Below are positions 3 through 13,100 of a stretch of DNA of 20,026 nt, one piece after another. The stretch is from IMG/VR virus record IMGVR_UViG_3300009008_000309, positions 1 to 20,026 of that record; one strand, written 5' to 3'. Origin of the DNA: a virus. A program made the translations under genes and the position numbers. Position 1 is the first letter of the stretch, and the number at the start of each line of letters is the position of its first letter. The notes below the pieces were generated by a model. That model saw only the letters and a list, made by a program, of their open reading frames with translations. It had not been told where the DNA came from and did no database searches.

Positions 3-185
3 GTGGCCGAGCAGGAGGGTTCCCCCGACCACGTCTTCGTCATCATCGACGGCGAGGATGTCGAGGTGCCGCTGACCGACCTGACGCTCTCGGCGGAGGC
101 GAAGGCCGAGCGCGACGAGCACCTCAAGGAGGCCCGCAGGCAGACCGAGGCGATGCTGGCGGAGATGTGGGCTGAGACGGCCTAG
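3..185 (+). CDS. Small acidic protein of unknown function, possibly 5'-truncated by the window edge
   Basis: An open frame of 60 codons runs from a GTG at base 3 to a TAG at 183-185. The frame is open to the left edge, so the true start and ribosome binding site may lie outside the window. The product is charged (many Glu, Asp, Arg), with a short beta-like segment (VFVIIDGEDVEVPL) followed by a probable helix rich in Glu, Arg and Ala. I recognise no family. It converges on the leftward GIY-YIG gene, and the two TAG stops share one CTAG palindrome at 182-185. The codons look like those of the neighbouring real genes (GC-rich third positions), which is the main support for it. Confidence 0.6.
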   Translation: MAEQEGSPDHVFVIIDGEDVEVPLTDLTLSAEAKAERDEHLKEARRQTEAMLAEMWAETA

Positions 186-574
186 TCGTCTTCGCGGGGC
201 CGCGTCAGGTCGATTCGACCCGCCATCCACCCCCTCGGGGGACCGGGCGGGTGGATCGGCCCGGCGGCCGTCTCCCACCACGAGTTGACCACTTCGAGAT
301 CGAGCAGGTCGTACAGGTCGTCGGGCAGGCTCCCGAGGCCGGGCTCGATGAACCACTCCCCCTTGTACGTCCCCTGCGAGCGGTAGCCCCGGAGTGCGTG
401 GTGGACCCGCCGCTCCCGCCACCCCGCGTTCTCGACGACAAGAATGATGCGCAGCTCGAACGGTGAGCCGACCTGAAGGTCCCGCAGCCGCCGTTCGGGG
501 TCAGAGCTTCGTCCGACCTTGAAGGCCCCCGTCGTGTGGCTCTGGATCACATACAAATGGGCTCCGCCCCTCAT
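182..574 (-). CDS. GIY-YIG nuclease domain protein (T5orf172/MUG113-like)
   Basis: About 130 residues. The N-terminal part carries the hallmarks of the short GIY-YIG class found in T5orf172/MUG113 proteins: LYVIQ (GIY position), FKVGRSSDPERRL (YIG position plus the conserved Arg), RERRVHHAL with the likely catalytic Glu, and the closing GEWF. These enzymes cut DNA and in phages are often stand-alone homing or recombination nucleases; this one's target is unknown. I chose the ATG at 574-572 because it overlaps the TGA of the upstream HNH gene as ATGA, and because the GIY motif follows within a few residues. The open frame extends to 667, but that part is only the HNH gene read in another frame. 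The C-terminal tail (after residue 90) is Pro/Gly/Trp-rich and not assignable. Substrate and activity are inferred. Confidence 0.85.
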   Translation of the reverse strand: MRGGAHLYVIQSHTTGAFKVGRSSDPERRLRDLQVGSPFELRIILVVENAGWRERRVHHALRGYRSQGTYKGEWFIEPGLGSLPDDLYDLLDLEVVNSWWETAAGPIHPPGPPRGWMAGRIDLTRPREDD

Positions 575-1152
575 GCCGCCCTCTCGTACCAGTCGAGGTA
601 GCGGCGGCAGTAGCCCGCCAGCTCCTCGAAGGTGAAGTTCTGCTTCATCCGGTTGAACGCCCAACACGCCAGCACGACGTTGCCCTCAACGTACCCCTCG
701 GCGGGAACCCTCCGGTCGAGGCTGATGGCCGTGTCCGCCCTGTCGCTGGCCCAGGTGAGTTCGGTGCCCGTGTAGAGGCACTTGCCCTCCTGTTGCTCCC
801 ACAGAGCCTCCAGGTGGGTGACGGGGAGGTCGAACGGGACGCCCTGCTTCCGGGCGTTGTTCCGGGCGGCGTTCCGCAACTGCTTGAGCTTCCGCTGCGG
901 CGACGAACATCGCCAGGCGTTCTGGTAGTCGCGGTGGCAGGCCCGGCAGAGCGTGTTGCCCCCGGTGAACGCCGACGCGGGCAGGTCTTGCTCGCAGTGC
1001 GGGCAGACGCGGTTGGGCATGGCGGCCAGCCTCTCCCTATACCGCTGCTGCTTCTGGCGGTTGGCTTCCTTGCGGCACTCCAGACACCGCTGGGCCTTGC
1101 CGGGGAACTCGTCGAGAGGTTTGGGCTTCTCGCAGACGGTGCAGGTTCGCAT
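571..1152 (-). CDS. HNH endonuclease with two N-terminal zinc-binding CxxC pairs
   Basis: 193 residues. Two tandem treble-clef or ribbon-like units come first: Cys4/Cys7 with Cys23/Cys26, and Cys50/Cys53 with Cys69/Cys72. They are followed by a basic helix (residues 80-103) and an HNH-type core at about 120-172: KCLYTG near 124-129, SLDR near 144-147, GYVEGNV at 153-159 and NRMKQ at 167-171. This core is typical of phage HNH nucleases with a YTG..LDR..GY..GNV..N.MK signature. Expected activity is metal-dependent DNA nicking or cleavage; the zinc units probably bind DNA or stabilise the fold. It starts at ATG 1152 with a GGAG-type ribosome binding site just upstream, and it is coupled by ATGA to the downstream GIY-YIG gene. 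It lies directly downstream of thyX on the same strand. Homing nuclease is the likely role, but a packaging or repair nuclease is possible. Confidence 0.85.
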   Translation of the reverse strand: MRTCTVCEKPKPLDEFPGKAQRCLECRKEANRQKQQRYRERLAAMPNRVCPHCEQDLPASAFTGGNTLCRACHRDYQNAWRCSSPQRKLKQLRNAARNNARKQGVPFDLPVTHLEALWEQQEGKCLYTGTELTWASDRADTAISLDRRVPAEGYVEGNVVLACWAFNRMKQNFTFEELAGYCRRYLDWYERAA

Positions 1153-1211: not shown

Positions 1212-2183
1212 CTACCCGCTGGGCGTGAGCAGGCGGTTGAGCTTCGCGGTCAGCTCCTTCTTCTCGCGGCCCTTGACCCCGGCCTCGGCCACCCCGGCGG
1301 CGACGATCTCGGCGACGCTCTTGTCGATGGCCTCGGGGAGCATCCGCAGGAGGCTGGAGAGCCCGACCACGTCGGCCCGCGTCAGGTACATGGCCTGGAG
1401 CCGGTAGTCCTCGAACGCCTCCCACGCCCAGGGCACCCACACCTTCACGATCTCGGCGATGGCGTTGGCGTACTCGCGAATCTCCTGCTGCGCGTGGGGG
1501 TCGAGCCGCAGGCCGAGGAAGTGGAACAGGTTGTGGAGGTCCATCTTCCAGTACGCCTCGGTGTACGTGGAGAGCGGGAGGTCCTTGCGGGCCTGCTCCT
1601 TCGCGACGCCGAAGGACAGCCGCTCCTCGTACACCTCGCGGGCCGTGCGCTGCGCCTCGCTCTCCCGCTCCGTCAGGTAGTTGGCCGGGCTGGTGAAGTA
1701 GTCGCTGCCGACCCACCCGCCGAACGGGAACTCGCCGTTGTCGTCGTCCATGCGGATCTCGAAGCCCTCGGGCCAGCCGCCGACCTCGCCCGCCGACCCC
1801 TGCTTGTTGTCCTTGCTCTGCGACCGCCAGGTGGTGACCTTCTGCGCGGAGTCGATGGCCGGGGCGTAGCGGGTCGAGGACTCGTTCACGTTCGCCGTGC
1901 GGTGGCGAATCCACTGCCGCCAGGCGTCCATCGGGACCCGCACGCGGATCTTCAGCTCGCACATCTCGAACGGCGTCGTGTGCCGCCCCCGCATGAGGTA
2001 GCGGAGCAGGCTGCGGTTCTGCGCGTCGGTGTGCTCGGAGGAGTGGCCGAAGAAGCTGACGCGGGCGGCGTCGATGATGGCGAGGTCGTCCCCCATCACG
2101 TCGATGAGCTGGATGTGGCCGTCGTCGAGGACGGGCATGGGGGTCGTGAACTTCTGGAGTCGCTCGGGAACGGGCATGTGCAT
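1212..2183 (-). CDS. thyX: Flavin-dependent thymidylate synthase ThyX
   Basis: 323 residues. The enzyme makes dTMP from dUMP using methylene-tetrahydrofolate, FAD and NADPH; it is common in large phages, where it supplies dTTP for replication. The family signature RHRX7S is present as RHRTANVNESS followed by TRY, preceded by TTPFEMCELKIRVRVP. Further family-like blocks are the WRSQSKDNKQGS segment, the EARKDLPLSTYTEAYWK-like stretch (here EQARKDLPLSTYTEAYW), and HNLFHFLGLRLDPHAQQEIREYA near the C-terminal half, which carries FAD/dUMP-binding residues. Two starts are possible: ATG 2183 has GGAG only 2 nt away, while the ATG two codons later (2177) has the same GGAG at 8 nt and may be the one used. 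There is no intein or frameshift. It opens a leftward block whose next genes are the HNH and GIY-YIG nucleases, and is divergent from the virion operon. Confidence 0.97.
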   Translation of the reverse strand: MHMPVPERLQKFTTPMPVLDDGHIQLIDVMGDDLAIIDAARVSFFGHSSEHTDAQNRSLLRYLMRGRHTTPFEMCELKIRVRVPMDAWRQWIRHRTANVNESSTRYAPAIDSAQKVTTWRSQSKDNKQGSAGEVGGWPEGFEIRMDDDNGEFPFGGWVGSDYFTSPANYLTERESEAQRTAREVYEERLSFGVAKEQARKDLPLSTYTEAYWKMDLHNLFHFLGLRLDPHAQQEIREYANAIAEIVKVWVPWAWEAFEDYRLQAMYLTRADVVGLSSLLRMLPEAIDKSVAEIVAAGVAEAGVKGREKKELTAKLNRLLTPSG

Positions 2184-3837: not shown

Positions 3838-5244
3838 ATGACGACCGCGTGGCAGTGGACGAGCGCGGGGGCGGCAGGCAAGCCGCTCCCCCCAAAGAAC
3901 CCGCAGGTCGTCAGCCCCTACGTCATCGGGATGCTCGACATCCGGTGGGAGGACCCCTCTGTGCTTGCCCGCAACGCGGGCTTCACCATCGTCGGGGTCA
4001 ACATCTACCGCTCCGAGGCGTCTGACCGAGGCCCGTTCCGCCGCATCAACGAGTTCCCCATCGGCGGCGGGTTCTACCGCGACCGCACGAACTACTCCCG
4101 CGTCACCAAGGAGACGGTGGTGTGGGGGTCGAGCTGGCGCTACCGGGGCGACGCCCCGAACGACCGGCGATGGGTGTTCTGCACCAAGAACCCCATCGCG
4201 AAGCGGTACGACTCGGCCCCCAACCAGGACGTGAACTTCGCGGACTCGCCGACCGACGTGCAGCTCTTCGTCAACGGCGAAGAGGTGGTGGTCGAGACGG
4301 TCTTCGGGAAGACCGGCGAGGTCACGCTCATCAACCGGCCGACCTTCGACGTGGGCACCGAGCAGCAGGTGGACCCGGTCTTGCCCACCGAGGCCGACCG
4401 GGTGGAGATCAGCTACTACACGCCGACGAACCACGTCCCGTCCGGGCTGGAGCACAACATCTGGTACAGGGTGACCACGGTCGCCGTGGACGCCACGACC
4501 CCGAGCGGGTACGTCGAGTCGCCCCTGGAGTGGGCCGAGCCGAAGTCCGTCGTCCAGGTGGAGGAGCTGGACTACATCTGGCGTGAGGCCATGCGGCGGA
4601 ACGCCTGGATTCTCCAGCAGGGCGGCGAGCGGGTGAAGATGTTCGTCCGCAAGATCCTCGGCATCCCCTGCGACTGCACCATCGAGGACAAGACCAGGGA
4701 GTACAGCAAGCAGCCCTCGAACCGCTGCCTGACGTGCTTCGGCACGGGCTTCAAGGGCGGGTACGAAGGCCCCTACGAGGTCATCATCGTCCCCGACGAC
4801 GCCGAGCGGCGGATCTCGCAGGCGGTGTCCGGGCGGCGGAAGGAGCACACCTACGAGGTGTGGACCGGCCCGAGCCCGCTGCTCACGCAGCGCGACTTCG
4901 TGATCAAGCAGACCAACGAGCGGTACTCGGTCGGTCCGGTGCGGCGGCCTTCCCATCGGGGCAACCTGATGCAGCAGCACTTCAACATCGCCTACCTGGA
5001 CCAGGGCGACATCCGCTACAAGGTCCCGGTCTACGGCACGACCGAACTGGCCTGGCCCGAGACTCGCGGCCAGCACTGCGTGCGGCCCTTCACGCCGCAG
5101 CCGGTGGACCACCCGATGGCGGGTCCGGCCCCGTGGCCTGTGGGCACCGATGCGCAGCACCCGATGCAGACCGAGAAGGCTGAGATCTGCGACGAGAACG
5201 AGCGCAGGGGCCGCACGAGGGTCTGGGAGAACACCGAATACTGA
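3838..5244 (+). CDS. Virion structural protein with FnIII-like N-terminus and Cys4 cluster (neck/connector candidate)
   Basis: 468 residues, start ATG 3838 after an AGGTG-type site. Residues about 20-85 resemble a fibronectin-III or FnIII-like beta fold (IRW..P...NIYRS....GPF..IN...). Residues 141-198 form the beta module VxxxVNGEEV...GKTGEVTL...RVEISYY, also found in the sheath encoded downstream. A probable zinc site follows: Cys278-x-Cys280 and Cys297-x2-Cys300, then FGTGFKGGY, a motif I know from other phage virion proteins. The rest is beta-rich. The one-base overlap TGATG with the next gene, and the downstream sheath, support a role in the neck, head-tail connector or baseplate. The exact position in the particle is not determinable from sequence. 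No truncation is seen. Confidence 0.85.
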   Translation: MTTAWQWTSAGAAGKPLPPKNPQVVSPYVIGMLDIRWEDPSVLARNAGFTIVGVNIYRSEASDRGPFRRINEFPIGGGFYRDRTNYSRVTKETVVWGSSWRYRGDAPNDRRWVFCTKNPIAKRYDSAPNQDVNFADSPTDVQLFVNGEEVVVETVFGKTGEVTLINRPTFDVGTEQQVDPVLPTEADRVEISYYTPTNHVPSGLEHNIWYRVTTVAVDATTPSGYVESPLEWAEPKSVVQVEELDYIWREAMRRNAWILQQGGERVKMFVRKILGIPCDCTIEDKTREYSKQPSNRCLTCFGTGFKGGYEGPYEVIIVPDDAERRISQAVSGRRKEHTYEVWTGPSPLLTQRDFVIKQTNERYSVGPVRRPSHRGNLMQQHFNIAYLDQGDIRYKVPVYGTTELAWPETRGQHCVRPFTPQPVDHPMAGPAPWPVGTDAQHPMQTEKAEICDENERRGRTRVWENTEY

Positions 5245-5858
5245 TGGGCGACCTCGGACGAATCCGGGGCGTCTACGGTGGCCCCGTCGCGAGCAAGATG
5301 CAGATCCCGGTCACCAGGGACCTGCTGGAGAAGCTCGGCGAGTGCCTGGTGGACGCCTTCATCAAGGAGGCGAAGAAGGACTTCGCCAAGCGAGGCTGGT
5401 CGGGTGAGGCCGAGGACGGCTCGGCCATGATCTGGGACTCGTTCAGCTTCAAGATCCGGGGGGAGAGCACCCTCGAAGTCCTGAGCACGTACCCCCACCT
5501 CGACGAGCTGACCACCCGCAACACCCCCCGCTACCGGATGACCTGGCTCACCCAGGAGGCGAAGAACACCAGGCCCACCCGCTACCCGCTGACGGACGCC
5601 GAGAAGAAGAAGGGGATGAAGCGGGCGGGTAGGGTGCGAGACGGGGACCGGATGCCCTTGGTGGTCCCCATCAAGCCCCGAGGAGGTGGCACGGTGGTCT
5701 TCCGAACGGCCCCGCTGAAGTTGGAGGACGCCTGGGTCCACCCCGGTATCGCCCGCTTCACGTTCATCGAGCGCGCGGTCAGGACGGGCAAGGCCGGGTG
5801 CATCAAGATCCTCCAGGCGGAGGCTCTCAAGGGCGTCGTCAAGGCGTTGAGCCAGTGA
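5244..5858 (+). CDS. Putative neck / tail-completion protein (HK97 gp10-like)
   Basis: 204 residues. The ATG at 5244 overlaps the preceding stop (TGATG). An N-terminal amphipathic helical region (about 20-50, LLEKLGECLVDAFIKEAKKDF) leads to a central part with YPHLDELTTRNTPRYRM and a basic loop with several lysines (about 113-121). The C-terminal part contains TVVFRTAP, then WVHPGIARFTFIERAV and a final helix. The HPG...F...A arrangement near the C-terminus resembles HK97 gp10-type and related phage neck/tail-completion proteins, which cap the tail or join it to the head. The similarity is by motif and context only. The downstream gene starts at GTG 5855, overlapping its TGA. Confidence 0.78.
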   Translation: MGDLGRIRGVYGGPVASKMQIPVTRDLLEKLGECLVDAFIKEAKKDFAKRGWSGEAEDGSAMIWDSFSFKIRGESTLEVLSTYPHLDELTTRNTPRYRMTWLTQEAKNTRPTRYPLTDAEKKKGMKRAGRVRDGDRMPLVVPIKPRGGGTVVFRTAPLKLEDAWVHPGIARFTFIERAVRTGKAGCIKILQAEALKGVVKALSQ

Positions 5859-6511
5859 TCGAGGCCCGCATCGAGTGCGAGTGCCAGGGGATCACCCTGT
5901 CCGACCTGGACCTGCACCTGACGAGGGGTCAGGTGGTGTTCATGGACGCCGCGAAGGCCCGTGCCTCGAAGGACATGCAGAGGGCCTGGCGAGTAGGCGC
6001 GGTGGCGGTGAAGTACGTCGAGCGATTCAAGGAGCGCAGGAAGGCCCCCGTGGCCCCGCACCCCCTCATCCCGGCTCGCGGCATGGTCGCAGCTCCGCCG
6101 GAGCCCATTGACGAGGCGACCACCGAGATCGTCATCGTGGACCCTGGCGAGATCGCCGCACGGGTCGTTCACGAGCTGGGCCGCAACCCCATCACGGCCG
6201 CCGTGCGGGTAGAGGTGGGTCGCCAGGTACAGGCCCTCGAAGACCGTCTCGTGGCCCGCGTGGTCGAGGGGGTCCTGGCGTCCCTGAAAGTCAATCCGGT
6301 GCAGCAGGTGGCGGCACAGGCCCCGCAGGCGGGTACGGTGCCTGTCGATGGAGACGTGCCCGTGTTCGTCCCGTCGAAGATCGACGGACTCCAGGCCGAT
6401 CTGGGGCTGGAGTCGGAGAAGGCGGACGAAGGGGTAGTGTCGGACGCAGCAGCCGCTCTGCGGGCAGCCCGTGGGGCTGGTAAGAAACGACGCACGGAGA
6501 AGCCGGAATGA
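5855..6511 (+). CDS. Virion-operon protein of unknown function with conserved N-terminal block
   Basis: 218 residues from GTG 5855, which overlaps the preceding stop as GTGA; the open frame reaches back to 5798 but that part is a shadow of the previous gene. The N-terminal 60 residues (ITLSDLDLHLTRGQVVFMDAAKARAS, then an RAWRVGAV block) look compact and conserved-like; I have the impression of similar small phage proteins next to neck genes but cannot name a family. The middle is predicted helical (VRVEVGRQVQALEDRLVARVVEGVL). The tail is Ala/Gln/Pro/Val-rich, acidic, then ends in a basic cluster (GAGKKRRTEKPE). It is coupled by ATGA to the actin-like gene, so the two products may work together. 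Confidence 0.75.
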   Translation: MIEARIECECQGITLSDLDLHLTRGQVVFMDAAKARASKDMQRAWRVGAVAVKYVERFKERRKAPVAPHPLIPARGMVAAPPEPIDEATTEIVIVDPGEIAARVVHELGRNPITAAVRVEVGRQVQALEDRLVARVVEGVLASLKVNPVQQVAAQAPQAGTVPVDGDVPVFVPSKIDGLQADLGLESEKADEGVVSDAAAALRAARGAGKKRRTEKPE

Positions 6512-7518
6512 GCGCGAAGAAGAAGCAGACCTTCGGGGTCGGGCTGGACATCGGGACGATGAACATCGTCTCCGCTCGCCGGGCCGCCAGCGGCATCGAG
6601 ACGAAGCGGATGCGCGACGCCTTCATGTCCTTGCCGAAGAGCAAGAGCCGGATGCTCAAGCTCTCGGACACGAGCTACGTCGAGCGTGAGGACGACATGC
6701 TCATCCTCGGCGACGCGGCGATGGAGATGGCGAACGTCTTCGGCGGCGATCCGCGACGCCCGCTGGCCGGGGGCCTGATCTCCGCCAGCGAGCAGGACGC
6801 CCTCGGCGTGCTGAAGCTGCTCATCCAGAACGTGCTCGGCGACCCCGCGACCTCCGACGAGGTCTGCTACTTCTCGGTGCCCGCTCCGCCCCTGGACCAG
6901 CCGGACCGGGACATCATCTACCACCGGGGCGTCTTCGAGCGCATCGTGGAGGAGTGCGGCTTCGACCCGTTCCCCGCGAACGAGGCGATGGCGATCATCT
7001 TCTCCGAGTGCGCCCCCGAGGGCTTCAGCGGCCTGTCCTTCAGCTTCGGCTCGGGCATGACGAACGTGGCCCTGGCCCTGAACACGACCGAGGTGCTGTC
7101 CTTCTCCGTGCAGCGGGGTGGGGACTGGATCGACAAGCACGCCGCTCAGGCGGTGGGCATGACGCAGGCTCAGATGTGCGCCCTCAAGGAGGCGGGCATC
7201 GACCTGGTGACGCACGAGACGCAGCCGGAGGAGGCGCTCGCCCTGTACTACAAGGCGATGATCGAGTTCGCGCTCGACCAGGTCGTGGCCCACTTCGCCT
7301 CGAAGGCCGGGCAGTACACCTTCCCGAAGCCGATCCCGATCATCGTCTCCGGCGGCACGAGCCAGGCGGGCAGCTTCCTCGACCTCTTCAACAAGGTCTG
7401 GCGGAAGAAGAAGCGCAAGTTCCCCATCGAGGTCAGCGAAGTCCGCGCGGCCAAGGACCCCCTCAACGCCGTCGCCTTCGGGATGCTGGTCCAGGCGATG
7501 CAGGAGTACGAGGAATGA
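6508..7518 (+). CDS. Actin-like ATPase (MreB/ParM/FtsA-PilM superfamily)
   Basis: 336 residues, near the usual size for bacterial actins. Visible motifs in order: phosphate-1 loop GLDIGTMN (Asp14, Gly16, Thr17, Asn19); the helix with Glu159 in FPANEAMA, matching the connect-1/catalytic Glu region; phosphate-2 loop GLSFSFGSGMTN (176-186); GGDWIDKH; adenosine motif IIVSGGTSQAGSF (278-290); and a closing NAVAFGM segment. In phosphate-2 the usual Asp is Ser179, so hydrolysis may be altered. Family members bind ATP and polymerise (DNA segregation, cell shape) or act as membrane-bound assembly factors (FtsA, PilM). Here it sits inside a virion operon, coupled by ATGA overlaps on both sides, so a role in particle assembly or phage positioning is possible but unproven. 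An Hsp70-like or non-polymerising relative is the alternative. Confidence 0.85.
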   Translation: MSAKKKQTFGVGLDIGTMNIVSARRAASGIETKRMRDAFMSLPKSKSRMLKLSDTSYVEREDDMLILGDAAMEMANVFGGDPRRPLAGGLISASEQDALGVLKLLIQNVLGDPATSDEVCYFSVPAPPLDQPDRDIIYHRGVFERIVEECGFDPFPANEAMAIIFSECAPEGFSGLSFSFGSGMTNVALALNTTEVLSFSVQRGGDWIDKHAAQAVGMTQAQMCALKEAGIDLVTHETQPEEALALYYKAMIEFALDQVVAHFASKAGQYTFPKPIPIIVSGGTSQAGSFLDLFNKVWRKKKRKFPIEVSEVRAAKDPLNAVAFGMLVQAMQEYEE

Positions 7519-7751
7519 GCGACGAAGGCTTCGAGCAGGTTTCTTTTCTGGACGAGCGGCCCGCGCAGGGCGCACGGGTGACCGTCGAGTTCGCCGACCC
7601 GGACGTGCCGAAGACGGTGTTCGACTTCGACGAGCTGCACATCGAGCAGAGCCGCGAGGTCCACAAGAAGACGGACGGGGCGGGCAACGTGGTCGAGCTG
7701 GTGCCCGACAAGCTCACCGTCACCGTGCTGACCGGGAAGAAGACCGACTGA
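7515..7751 (+). CDS. Small beta-rich protein of unknown function
   Basis: 78 residues. The ATG at 7515 overlaps the stop of the actin-like gene (ATGA), and its own TGA overlaps the next ATG (TGATG), so it is embedded in the coupled chain. The sequence begins MSDEGFEQVSFLDERPAQG and alternates short beta-like strands (VTVEFAD, KLTVTVLTGK) with acidic loops. I recognise no family. Because it is coupled to the ATPase it could be a partner or regulator of it; this is inference from position only. Confidence 0.7.
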   Translation: MSDEGFEQVSFLDERPAQGARVTVEFADPDVPKTVFDFDELHIEQSREVHKKTDGAGNVVELVPDKLTVTVLTGKKTD

Positions 7752-7972
7752 TGCAGATCCGGGCTCGGCTCTGCGACCCGGAACGATCCGTCCCGCACCA
7801 GGGCAAGGACTACAGGTTCGTCTGCGCCTCCGAGGCGGACAACGAGACGACCTTCGCTTGCACGGGCTCCGAGCACCGGCTGGAGGGGGTCGAGATCCTC
7901 TGCGACTGCCCCTGCCACGAGGCCCCTGTCGTGGTGGCCCTCCCTGATTCGCCTATCGACGGCGGAGGGTAG
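7751..7972 (+). CDS. Small cysteine-rich protein, possible zinc binder
   Basis: 73 residues from the ATG at 7751, which overlaps the preceding stop (TGATG). It contains six cysteines: one in RLCDPE, one in FVCAS, one in FACTGSEH, and a CDCPCH-like cluster (ILCDCPCHE). Pairs of Cys and His suggest a small metal site, but the spacing matches no standard finger that I can name. The C-terminus is proline-rich. The next gene starts 20 nt later with its own strong ribosome binding site, so coupling ends here. Confidence 0.65.
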   Translation: MQIRARLCDPERSVPHQGKDYRFVCASEADNETTFACTGSEHRLEGVEILCDCPCHEAPVVVALPDSPIDGGG

Positions 7973-7992
7973 ACCCCCGTGGAGGCGACGCC

Positions 7993-9207
7993 ATGTACTT
8001 CCAGCTCACCGAGGCGCTGAAGCGACGCTTCATCGAAGAGCTGCGTCGCTACTGGTCCTACCACCCGAAGTACCGCGACGACCTGGTCGAGAACATCCAG
8101 GGGAAGTTCAGCTTCAAGGAGCGCCCGCAGCACGGGATCATCATCAAGACCGGCTCGGGCAACCGGGTGGACCTCTCCGCCGACAACTACGTCGGCGTCG
8201 TCGAGAGCTACTGCCTGCTCACCAAGGTCAAGAACAAGCCCGGCCTCTCGCTGGAGTGGGTGCGCGAGGATGCCGTCGCGGTCCAGAACAACGGCGGCCT
8301 GTTCCCGACCGACCCCGGCATCTACTACATCGACATCGTGGAGGAGGCCGGGAGCCTGGTCTTCTACGTGGACCCGCTCATCGAGGTGGTCCGCGAGCCG
8401 GTCACCCTGCTCACCGATACGACGGCACAGCTTGCGCAGGCCCCGCTGCCGGGCAGCCTCCGCCTGTTCGAGCAGCCCTCCGGCTTCCGCATGACCGAGG
8501 GGGTGGGCTACACCCTGGACACCGACGCCGGAGGCGAGCAGCTCACCGGGGGCATCACCCTGGCGAGGCCGCTGACGGGTGGGCGGTGGTTGCAGGCCGA
8601 CTACCGCTACCCGCTGGAGTCGCAGGGGCCGTACCCCATCACCGAGATGCACGCCAACAACACCGCCCTGCCGGGCGTGGTGCTGGCCTTCGGTCGCCGG
8701 GCACAGGCCGGTGACCAGCTCGCCATCGTGGTCCACGACATCCGCCGCCCGGCGGCCCTGGAGTACGGCGGCAAGTGGGAGTTGCAGCTCGACTGCGACG
8801 TGATGAGCCGCGACGTGTACTCGCAGCAGGAGATCGTCGATCAGACGGTCGTGTACCTGTGGGGCGTCCTCCGATCCCACCTGTCCCACCAGGGCATCGA
8901 GATCACCGATGTCTCGCTGGGCGGGGAGTCGGAGGAGGTGTACGACGAGAACGGCGACGACTACTTCTACAACGCGAACTTCTCGATCACCTGCCAGACC
9001 GACTGGTCCCTTCACGTCCCCATCGACGGCTGGCTCCGGCAGGCCGCTCCGCTGACGCGGGAGCAGGCAGCGGAGATCGAGGCCCTGTCCGATGATGAAC
9101 TTCGGGGGGAGGACGGTAACATCAAGGCACTGGAAGACCTTGGTGTCCAGGCCGTGCAGGACCCCTTCTGGTCGGGCAAGGCAGGCACCTTCCCGATGAT
9201 CAAGTAG
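7993..9207 (+). CDS. Virion structural protein (404 aa), tail/connector candidate
   Basis: 404 residues; ATG 7993 has GGAGG 7 nt upstream. It opens with a helix and aromatic cluster (LKRRFIEELRRYWSYHPKYRDDL), then IQGKFSFKERPQHGIIIKTGS and RVDLSADNYVGVVESY. I recognise this opening in general terms as that of large-phage virion proteins. The middle is beta-rich and includes a segment like the module of the sheath (ITLARPLTGGRWLQADYRYP, about 189-208). The C-terminal third has an acidic loop (ESEEVYDENGDDYFY), then a helical, acidic tail ending in a Pro-Met-Ile-Lys stretch. Head-tail connector, tail terminator or tail-tube-associated protein are all possible. Confidence in virion function comes from context and composition, not from a named family. 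Confidence 0.82.
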   Translation: MYFQLTEALKRRFIEELRRYWSYHPKYRDDLVENIQGKFSFKERPQHGIIIKTGSGNRVDLSADNYVGVVESYCLLTKVKNKPGLSLEWVREDAVAVQNNGGLFPTDPGIYYIDIVEEAGSLVFYVDPLIEVVREPVTLLTDTTAQLAQAPLPGSLRLFEQPSGFRMTEGVGYTLDTDAGGEQLTGGITLARPLTGGRWLQADYRYPLESQGPYPITEMHANNTALPGVVLAFGRRAQAGDQLAIVVHDIRRPAALEYGGKWELQLDCDVMSRDVYSQQEIVDQTVVYLWGVLRSHLSHQGIEITDVSLGGESEEVYDENGDDYFYNANFSITCQTDWSLHVPIDGWLRQAAPLTREQAAEIEALSDDELRGEDGNIKALEDLGVQAVQDPFWSGKAGTFPMIK

Positions 9208-9213
9208 GACCCG

Positions 9214-9504
9214 ATGGAAGAAGTACGACACAAGACGGCGAAGTCCTGGTTCGACCAGCTCGAAGCCTGCCGGGGGCACGAACTCGTCTCCGCCGACGAG
9301 ACGGTGAGGCGGAGCATCGGGTTCATCGACCACACCGATGAGAAGCACCACCTCATCAACCTGAACGCGCTCTCCCACACCATCGACGAAGCTCTCGGGC
9401 CGCCGCTGTCGGTCGAGGAACTGGAGGTGCAGACGGAGCCGACCCTTCGTGGGCTCATCCGCACCCCGGAAGGCCGGAAGATGCTCGTCGGGAGGTTCTG
9501 CTGA
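9214..9504 (+). CDS. Small protein of unknown function
   Basis: 96 residues, starting at ATG 9214 six bases after the preceding stop and ending in TGATG shared with the next gene. The sequence begins MEEVRHKTAKSWFDQL and contains several His and acidic residues (IDHTDEKHHLINLNALSHTIDE), then a leucine-containing acidic stretch and RTPEGRKMLVGRFC at the end. It looks like a compact alpha/beta protein without signal or membrane segments. I do not recognise a family. Its tight packing between two virion-operon genes suggests a particle or assembly role. Confidence 0.72.
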   Translation: MEEVRHKTAKSWFDQLEACRGHELVSADETVRRSIGFIDHTDEKHHLINLNALSHTIDEALGPPLSVEELEVQTEPTLRGLIRTPEGRKMLVGRFC

Positions 9505-9932
9505 TGCCCACCTACGAGTACCAGTGCGCCTGTGGCGTGCGCTTCGACGGGCGTGCGCCTGTCGCCGACCGGCGGAAGCCGAAGGAGTGCCCGGACTGTG
9601 GCGAGGACGCCCCTCCGATGCCGCCTTCGACGGTGGCCGGGCACTTCAACAAGAACGTGGACGGCCCCGGCCCGCAGAACACCGGCATCCACGACCTGGA
9701 CACGCACATCGATCGCGTGATCGGCCAGTCCTCCCGCCAGGGGTGGGATGTCGCCGAGGGCCGGAAGCGGCAGAAGGAAGAGGTCATGGCCGCCGAGGGG
9801 GTCACCGGCAAGGACCTCTCGAAGCGGCCGGACGGCAGCTACGGCGTGCTCAAGCCGGAGGAGCGTGCAGTCCACGACCGAGCACAGAAGATCCACGAGA
9901 AGGCGGGCGAGTGGAAGCGGGACAGCCGTTAG
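9504..9932 (+). CDS. FmdB-type zinc-ribbon protein in the virion operon
   Basis: 142 residues, start ATG 9504 (TGATG overlap). The N-terminus is a clear FmdB-type zinc ribbon: MPTYEYQCACG with Cys8 and Cys10, then ECPDCG with Cys29 and Cys32, giving four zinc ligands. FmdB-like putative regulatory proteins are short and found in bacteria and in phage structural gene clusters. Here the ribbon is followed by about 105 residues of helical, charged sequence (AEGRKRQKEEVMAAEG, EERAVHDRAQKIHEKAGEW). The first half after the ribbon contains GPGPQNTGIHDLDTHIDRVIGQSSRQGWD. Function is unknown; a structural or assembly role is suggested by the neighbours. The TAG stop at 9930-9932 is followed by 51 in-frame sense codons, discussed separately. 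Confidence 0.82.
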   Translation: MPTYEYQCACGVRFDGRAPVADRRKPKECPDCGEDAPPMPPSTVAGHFNKNVDGPGPQNTGIHDLDTHIDRVIGQSSRQGWDVAEGRKRQKEEVMAAEGVTGKDLSKRPDGSYGVLKPEERAVHDRAQKIHEKAGEWKRDSR

Positions 9933-10157: not shown

Positions 10158-13100
10158 ATGGCTTTCCCCGGACTGAACTACGCTCCCCCCAACGTCTACA
10201 CCGAGACGGACTTCGAGAACCCGCTCATCGGGGCCATCGAGTCCCTGAAGGTCCCGGTCCTCATCGGTGAGGGCAACGAGTACCTCTCGCAGACCGACCT
10301 GGAGGTCGTGCGCGGCTCCTCCGCCACGGTGGACCAGCGGATCGTCGGCGAGGACATGACCGGCCGCTCGGTGGTCAGCGTCTCGGCGACCGGGGCGGTG
10401 ACGCGGGGCAACTTCGACGGCACGCTGACGAAGGTGCAGGTGCGGAACCTGCCCATCGTGGACGGCACGGGTCGGGGCACGACCAGCAACAGCCGCAGCG
10501 ACGTGAGCGTCACCATCAACGGGCTGCCCATCGTGGTCCTGTCGGTGACGGGTGCGACCGGCATCATCGAGCTGGCGACGGCTCCGAAGCTCGGCGACCT
10601 GGTCCGGGTCAGCTACTTCTTCAACCGCGAGGACACCCTCGTCACGGACGACGTGTCCGACCAGGTGACGGCCGAGGCGGCCATCATCCGGGCCAGCGTC
10701 GGCATCAAGGACGTGAACGCCCCGACGCCGGGGACCACGACCCTCGACATCCACGCGGACACCCTCGGCCCCAACGGCCAGGTGGTCGTCCCGGCGAACA
10801 ACGTGCTGAACCTCGTCGTGGACGGCACGCAGACCACGCTGACGCTGACGCCCAAGTCCGACTACACGATGCAGCAGATCGCGAACGTGATCTCCGGTGC
10901 GGGCATCGGGACGCTGACGGGCGCGACCTTCGTCAACAACCACGGCGAGAGCACCCTGTCGCTCAACGCCGACCACGACCTGACGGTCCTCGACGGCACG
11001 GCGAACGCGCTGCTCGGCCTGGTGGCCGGGAGCACGAGCACCCGCCGCAAGACCTTCTACACCTTCAACGGCCCCATCGTGGACGGCACCAACGGCGGCG
11101 TCACGACGACCGATCCGAGCCACGTCACGGTGAAGGTGGACGGCACGCAGGTCATCCCCGAGAGCGTGGACGGCGCGACGCGGGCCATCACCCTGACGCA
11201 GGCCCCGGTGGCCGGTGCGACGGTGACGGTGACCTACTGGTTCAACACCTGGCAGGACACCTACGACCACCTGGCGCACGTCAACGTGACGAGCCTCACC
11301 CGCGTCGGCGACGTGCCGGGCGGCAGCCAGTACATCCAGGGCGCGGACTTCGTGCTGGAGAACGACCGGGTCATGTGGGGCACGGCGGCCCTGGTCGCCA
11401 GCGGCATCACGACGACCGGCTCCGAGCTGTTCGACGACACGCAGATCACCCCGACCCTGATCGACAACCGCACCTTCATGTCCCCCTGCACGGCCGTCGT
11501 GTCGTCGCAGGGTGCCGCGAGCGCGACCGAGTTCCAGCTCCCGCTGAACCCGACCCTCGGCAACGGCCGCTCGACGAGCCTCGGGCAGAGCCTCTTCCAG
11601 AGCGTCGCCAACGACCGCATCGGCGTCCCGGTGAACCGGCCCGACGTGGTCGATGTCTACTGGGGCTTCTCGGTGGACGACGCCCTGGCACGGGGCAAGG
11701 TGGACGCCGTCAAGGTCGAGGGGAGCGTGGTCACGCTGCGCGAGCCCGTCCCGGTCGGGGCGAGCGTCTACGCCAGCTTCTACCACTCCCTCATCGTGGA
11801 CATGGCCTACACCCTGGCCGTGGTCATCCCCGGCGTCAGCGGCGTCGGGACCTACACGATTCAGGACTCCGGCAGCAACGACGTGTTCACGCCGACGTTC
11901 GACAACAGCACGAAGTCGGCGGGCCTCACCGGCATCGACATCGTGTTCCCGAGCGGCAGCGAGCTGACCCCGGACCTGCACTTCGAGGGCGGCTCCGGCA
12001 CGACCTTCCAGGGTCCGGTGGAGGAGGTGGTCACGGTCACCTTCTCGGACACCTCGGACACCCCGGCGAAGTACACGGTCGCCGGACCGGCCCCCTACGC
12101 CTTCATCCCCGCCGAGTCCGACCTGGTGGCGATGACCATCAACGGCGACACGGTCCTCCCGGCGGCGGGCACCGACCTCGACACCATCTCCGGTGGTGCG
12201 GCGGGCGTCATGGCCCACTTCGTCGGCGAGCCGCTGGAGTACCCGGACGGCACCGACTTCGACGTGGCCGACTTCACGGCGGGTGCCGAGCAGATCATCC
12301 TCACCGTGGACGGGGTGGAGATCACCGCCACCGTCCCGGCCGTGGCGAACACCACGGTCGCGGACATCGCGGCGGCCATCAACGAGGCGGCGGACGGCCA
12401 CGTCGGCGTCGCGGGCGCGGCTGCCCCGGCGACGACGACCTTCGAGCTGGACGCGACCTACCGCGTGCCCATCGACGACTACTACAACGGCTGGCTCGTC
12501 GTCGTCGGCAACGGGGCGACGGCCATCACGGCGGGCTCGGTCGGCGAGGTCCTCGACTACAACGGGACCACGGGCGTCGTCACCCTGACGGCGGCCATCG
12601 ACGGCGTGAACGCCTTCGTCCTGGCCGACCCCTACAAGCTCTACAACCCGGACACGATGCCGGTCCTGAAGGGCGCGACGCGCTTCAACGGCCCGGTGGA
12701 CCTGGCCGGTGGTGCGGGCTTCGACACCATCACCGTTCGCATCCTCGGCGACACCCAGGCGGCGGTCTCCCTGAGCGCCACCGTGGCGGCCCTGCACAGC
12801 TCGGTCACCGACCTGGCGACGGACCTCAACGAGGCCTTCCGGGGAGCCCCGGTCGGCGGCCACACGTTCCTCATCGGCCCGGCGGCGGCGTCGGCGGTGG
12901 CGACGCTGGCGGCGGCCAACCTCGGCACGGACTTCATCTTCTCGGCGGACGGCGACGGTCGCCTCCAGGTGCAGTTCCAGCCCGGTCCCCTGGACCAGGC
13001 GGCCTACCTGGAGATCGTGGCGCAGGGCGCGGCGGCGGACGACCTCGGTGTCCTCGCCGGGTTCGACGTGGCGGGGGCGGCCGGTCAGCAGGCCAAGCTC

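Follow-up and report, generated by a model that had tools for sequence, protein, structure and literature searches.

The actins that have been described from phages act on DNA. In prophage CGP3 of Corynebacterium, for example, the actin AlpC operates with AlpA, an adaptor that binds DNA, and a similar pairing of actin and adaptor is observed for ParM/ParR (PMC4446434, PMC5539076). Transport of phage particles is known for a tubulin, PhuZ, whose spindle moves capsids in nucleus-forming jumbo phages (PMC8314001, PMC9067925). Among cellular actins, volactin (VolA/HVO_2015) represents a family of haloarchaea and Archaeoglobi. In live cells of Haloferax volcanii, its founding protein HVO_2015 assembles into dynamic filaments and is required for rods to become disks on time; it is the only member of the family for which dynamic filaments and a role in cell shape have been demonstrated (PMC10869688).

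The window, by which we mean the whole 20,026-bp stretch of DNA analysed, corresponds to IMG/VR virus record IMGVR_UViG_3300009008_000309. One of its genes encodes an actin that shares with archaeal volactin its Pfam family, a serine in the phosphate-2 loop and a similar length. Unlike archaeal volactins, the phage proteins form a clade of their own, reside in a particle operon and are accompanied by a putative adaptor gene (f), whereas a neighbour search found no f-like partner beside the archaeal genes. PhuZ is a possible functional analogue, but it is a tubulin and the window’s phage has an actin; a tubulin-family gene (PF00091) is absent from 11 large records of the phage clades considered here. 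The pairing with an adaptor also recalls AlpC/AlpA, although this locus has no repeats and no DNA-binding fold was recognised in f. None of the annotated phage actins showed detectable sequence similarity to the window’s protein, and a literature search limited to open-licence papers yielded no report of a volactin-type actin in phages.

Family, fold and phylogeny of the phage actin

The product of the actin ORF belongs to the volactin family. Its match to Pfam PF25216 (243.8 bits against a cut-off of 35; E 4e-72) covers residues 11-330 and spans profile positions 3-321 of 321. The actin-superfamily motifs recognised in an earlier note on this DNA do occur in the right order, starting at residues 14 (DIGTMN), 157 (ANEAMA), 179 (SFGSGMTN) and 279 (IVSGGTSQAG). 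Column tables for the phage, archaeal and bacterial groups contain all the volactin hallmarks (DxGT, NE, SxGxGMxN and GGT), with residues D14, G16, T17, E159, G181, G183, G282 and G283 invariant. The ORF begins with ATG and is under purifying selection, and its dN/dS of 0.13-0.22 against relatives that are 83-90% identical indicates a working gene.

Single-protein sequence searches against PHROGs and the PDB returned nothing informative. An AlphaFold2 model that drew on 48 proteins from the window and other loci was of high quality (mean pLDDT 92.8, pTM 0.90), and when it was compared with the PDB using Foldseek, ranks 1-24 were all occupied by the filament formers MreB, Mbl, MamK and BeeR. 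The MamK filament structure matches with a TM score of 0.74-0.77, and the family profile detects MamK from sequence alone (E 1e-8). In its own cells, MamK positions particles, the magnetosomes. MreB, Mbl and MamK are ~16-19% identical to the phage actin and have Asp where it has Ser in phosphate-2, and the phage gene lacks the wall-synthesis or magnetosome context of these proteins. FtsA first appears at rank 29, below MreB and MamK, which disfavours the FtsA- or PilM-like platform once considered for this protein. Sugar kinases and Hsp70 proteins are missing from the best 50 solved-structure matches. With MreB, Mbl, MamK and BeeR on top and these two groups outside the best 50, the protein retains the actin-like fold assigned to it and does not group with non-polymerising sugar-kinase/Hsp70 proteins. 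Hsp70 proteins do turn up in a library of viral structures, seemingly without a close relative of the actin among them. Thus, the initial assignment of an actin fold stands, but it had overlooked both the volactin family and a C-terminal tail on the upstream gene that co-occurs with the actin.

The earlier note had also drawn attention to Ser179 in place of the usual Asp of phosphate-2. This substitution is borne out by the family profile, in which Ser179 stands opposite the Asp in the MamK motif ‘vDiGAGTTD’, but it is no peculiarity of this protein. Ser is invariant at phosphate-2 in every family group examined (phage, cellular archaeal and bacterial) and, judged from these alignments, characterises the volactin family as a whole. 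This invariance led us to reject the idea that Ser179 marks an odd or dead enzyme. The patterns used for the second viral scan and for the genome scan contained the phosphate-2 Ser, which makes the Ser counts from both partly circular, and therefore independent evidence for invariance comes only from the first viral scan and from loci found by HMM. The HMM search yielded ten further archaeal loci, all with the Ser. Haloferax mucosum (L107) carries this residue, and HVO_2015, which polymerises, is assumed to share the Ser of its close relatives; on that assumption, Ser does not preclude polymerisation. As archaeal volactin illustrates, an actin can have Ser in phosphate-2 and still form filaments, which invites biochemistry on such an active site.

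In a phylogenetic tree, the actins of the window’s clade group together on a single branch with good support, separate from the archaeal volactins (~37% identity) and from a bacterial volactin-like group recovered by the genome scan (~40% identity). The archaeal and phage clades are separate branches with support of 98/82 and 96/93 or better. The phage protein is thus a volactin-family member but not an archaeal volactin, and its position outside the archaeal clade speaks against a VolA orthologue. The window’s clade contains hundreds of IMG/VR relatives, the largest of whose contigs measures 618,736 bp, as well as LR745208 (485 kb). The placement of LR756511, which has a very long branch, is unsure. 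Phage volactins are a real and deeply conserved variant of the family, and apparently an undescribed one. Of 295 genomes sampled from the archaeal phylum of locus L037, 69 have a PF25216 match above the cut-off.

Some loci deserve separate mention. One 297-kb contig bears two actin loci (L010 and L013) and another locus bears two adjacent copies (L165), reflecting either duplication of the module or mixed assembly. The bacterial volactin-like genes (L030, L031/L032, L033, L034 and L035) are spread over several phyla. Their products have the same motifs as the phage actin, but the genes are cellular and several are associated with gas-vesicle clusters. Two of them (L033 and L035) directly adjoin GvpL/F gas-vesicle genes, and gas-vesicle clusters may therefore have their own actin.

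Organization of the particle operon

The actin gene overlaps both of its neighbours by ATGA, as previously noted and as can be read directly from the junctions with gene f (CCGGAATGAGC) and with the small ORF that follows (GAGGAATGAGC). The features of the window are listed in Table 1.

Table 1. Features of the 20,026-bp window and the basis for each assignment
Feature	Coordinates	Strand	Basis
T5orf172/GIY-YIG-type protein	182..667	-	
ThyX thymidylate synthase	1212..2183	-	PF02511
Gene d, conserved morphogenesis gene, putative neck-like by position	3838..5244	+	Conserved order; weak phrog_2806 (unknown function) match
Gene e, conserved morphogenesis gene, putative neck/tail-completion-like by position	5244..5858	+	Conserved order; alignment
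Gene f, putative adaptor	5855..6511	+	Alignments, model; present in nearly all phage loci
f C-tail (FVPSKI ... DAAAALRAARGAGKKRR), proposed actin ligand	6353..6508	+	Co-occurrence with actin
Volactin-family actin, 336 aa	6508..7518	+	PF25216 243.8 bits; model pLDDT 92.8; top PDB matches MreB/Mbl/MamK
Small ORF, ATGA overlap with actin stop	7515..7751	+	Junction sequence; poorly conserved, similar sequence in only 2 loci
Gene i, conserved, possibly tail-terminator-like (inferred)	7993..9207	+	Conserved order
Gene k, zinc ribbon (FmdB-like)	9504..9932	+	Pfam PF09723 E 1.5e-8; conserved order
Giant tail sheath, 1780 aa	10158..15500	+	phrog_2839 E 1.8e-21, residues 1432-1776

Conservation of this gene order in related phages had been proposed as a check, and the order is indeed conserved, with d-e-f-actin-i-sheath found on contigs up to 619 kb. 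The series d, e, f, actin, i, zinc ribbon and sheath is kept in most phage loci that have room to show it, and it holds at identities as low as 25-50%. The location between neck and sheath genes given in the earlier note is firm on the sheath side, where the phrog_2839 match is also present in other large records, but the neck label is weak, given that phrog_2806 is a family of unknown function. Scans of d, e, f and i against PHROG, Pfam and the PDB gave weak or unknown-function matches only (for i, no PDB match was found), and the neck and terminator labels of d, e and i are therefore drawn from position and resemblance. The alignment of e contains an invariant W.HPG motif.

The N-terminus of the giant sheath (10158-11700) matches d-family genes (3838-5244) at 33-39% identity in related loci, and the two proteins seem from this similarity to share a domain. 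An HMM built from gene d shifted to the sheath upon iteration, and the d and sheath distances were therefore left unused. The ThyX and T5orf172/GIY-YIG-type genes reside upstream of the structural operon on the opposite strand.

Gene f and its C-terminal tail

Gene f, for which an earlier in-frame start is possible at 5798, encodes a protein in three parts: a folded N-domain (~58 residues), a variable linker in which a helix is predicted, and a C-tail that is conserved, with the consensus [FY][IV]Pxx[IL]...SxDxAxxALRxxRKxK. The N-domain is modelled confidently and is beta-rich, whereas the C-tail is disordered in the model. Comparison of the N-domain with the PDB found no fold match, and no RHH or HTH was recognised.

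A putative adaptor gene directly upstream of an actin gene fits a DNA mover like ParM or AlpC/AlpA, in which the actin would pull or position phage genomes and f would be the DNA-binding adaptor. Known phage actins do act on DNA via an adaptor, as AlpC does through AlpA (PMC4446434, PMC5539076). However, a search for centromere-like repeat arrays found none in positions 5000-8200 and none in the entire window, including any iteron-like array near these genes, and the absence of repeats disfavours plasmid-like segregation. The beta-rich N-domain of f, with neither a fold match nor a recognisable RHH or HTH, does not favour DNA binding, and the actin lies in a late particle operon, not near replication genes. 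We therefore regard movement of DNA as an improbable function.

The distribution of the f tail provides evidence that links this gene to the actin. Complete loci were pooled from those collected earlier and from scans anchored on i and d instead of on the actin. In this pool, the d-to-i interval is complete in 76 distinct loci, 68 with the actin and 8 without, a ratio that overstates how common the actin is because actin-anchored loci are included; in the i-anchored scan by itself, the actin was present in 68 of 75 loci before duplicates were merged. The correlation between f tail and actin is independent of this ratio. Every one of the 68 actin-bearing loci has the f N-domain and every one has the tail, which was detected by HMM in the same ORF in 67 and read by eye as ETFIPGNF in the last (L428). 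By the same HMM, the tail is present in none of the eight actin-less loci. Four of these lack f entirely and four keep its N-domain; the only doubtful case (L407) has a lone SFVPAPV from which the subsequent helix is missing. Flanking genes are contiguous in the six actin-less loci that were read in detail, and PF25216 is also absent from the remainder of each of their contigs (one of 536 kb), which may be incomplete.

When mapped on the tree of i, the actin-less loci require seven changes, at least five of which are forced by well-supported branches. The four that keep the N-domain occupy three separate places, and therefore represent three separate losses of the tail. In most loci f abuts or overlaps the actin gene, but the two are more than 100 bp apart in 9 of 68, and in L163 and L168 they have moved apart with the tail retained. 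A tail that is present with the actin and gone without it, through three separate losses, indicates that f is probably the adaptor of the actin. The tail itself is likely to be the ligand that the actin recognises. The simplest reading is that the tail decays once the actin is lost, and that the N-domain has a separate job in the operon.

The retention of the f N-domain in operons that lack the actin also accords with a different arrangement, wherein the actin-fold protein, as single subunits or in short oligomers bound to the neck or tail, serves as an assembly ATPase, chaperone or minor virion component that helps f or the giant sheath and tail to assemble. The location of the actin within the particle operon, near the giant sheath gene, is consistent with this view, and the closterovirus Hsp70 homologue, which becomes part of the virion, offers an analogue. 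However, the nearest folds are those of filament formers and not Hsp70, and no substrate domain is present in the 336-aa model. The nearest characterised member of the family, moreover, polymerises (PMC10869688). We consider an assembly chaperone unlikely on balance.

An adaptor carried by the particle operon also bears on whether the actin might act on the host by altering or inhibiting its cytoskeleton or its shape, for instance if it mixed or competed with host MreB. A role in cell shape is known for archaeal volactin (PMC10869688), and the phage protein is close in fold to MreB, but a host-directed gene would not need conserved coupling to gene f of the particle operon and its tail. A host-directed factor thus seems very unlikely, and a filament that is joined to particle components through f remains our preferred interpretation.

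A second clade and the proposed filament-adaptor system

A second clade of huge phages (clade B; L027 and L247-L326) encodes a volactin-family actin of ~30% identity in a different conserved neighbourhood. Its members include LR756511 (595 kb) and contigs up to 532,729 bp. Immediately upstream of the actin, clade B phages encode a protein of ~75 aa that is unrelated to f, yet again has a linker and a conserved C-tail, here of the form W[AE]IPDF...K[IL]xFGK, with the IP core in 74 of 79. This core is also found in f, but it is short and may be a chance resemblance. Like architecture at a like position in two clades supports the existence of a filament-adaptor pair. In L250, L263, L280 and L294, a putative GIY-YIG homing endonuclease, recognised by eye, replaces or displaces the clade B partner directly upstream of the actin. 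The terminase profile PF03237 matched clade B records only, and the actin is 12-14 kb from the terminase in two of the three records with such a match.

We propose that the actin and f would be produced together with the particle proteins, late in infection. The actin would then polymerise with ATP into filaments, which, from its fold and family, we consider likely. The f N-domain would attach to part of the virion or to an intermediate in its assembly, such as a neck or tail component, whereas the flexible tail of f, with FIPxxI and a basic helix at its end, would bind the actin filament. Within the host cell, filament and adaptor together could collect nascent tails or particles, keep them in place or move them. 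The actin might thus be a filament that positions particles or a scaffold for their assembly. The existence of eight lineage representatives that lack the actin, including one on a contig of 536 kb, indicates that the actin is not essential for assembly.

That a volactin-type actin and an f adaptor act in particle assembly or placement is, in our estimation, about evenly balanced between right and wrong, and for the actin itself a role in placing or assembling particles is a possibility to which we give somewhat less weight. More tentatively still, huge phages that lack a tubulin spindle might employ a phage-made actin cytoskeleton to capture nascent tails or particles via an adaptor with an actin-ligand tail peptide, with a different adaptor paired with the volactin-type actin in each of the two clades.

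If true, a volactin-type actin with an adaptor tail, encoded within the particle operon of phages whose genomes reach ~600 kb, would constitute a second kind of viral cytoskeleton. It would also make testable how very large phages organise assembly within the cell, and the f tail, being a short peptide, is itself readily testable. These findings suggest that some giant phages use actin filaments of their own when building or placing their particles.
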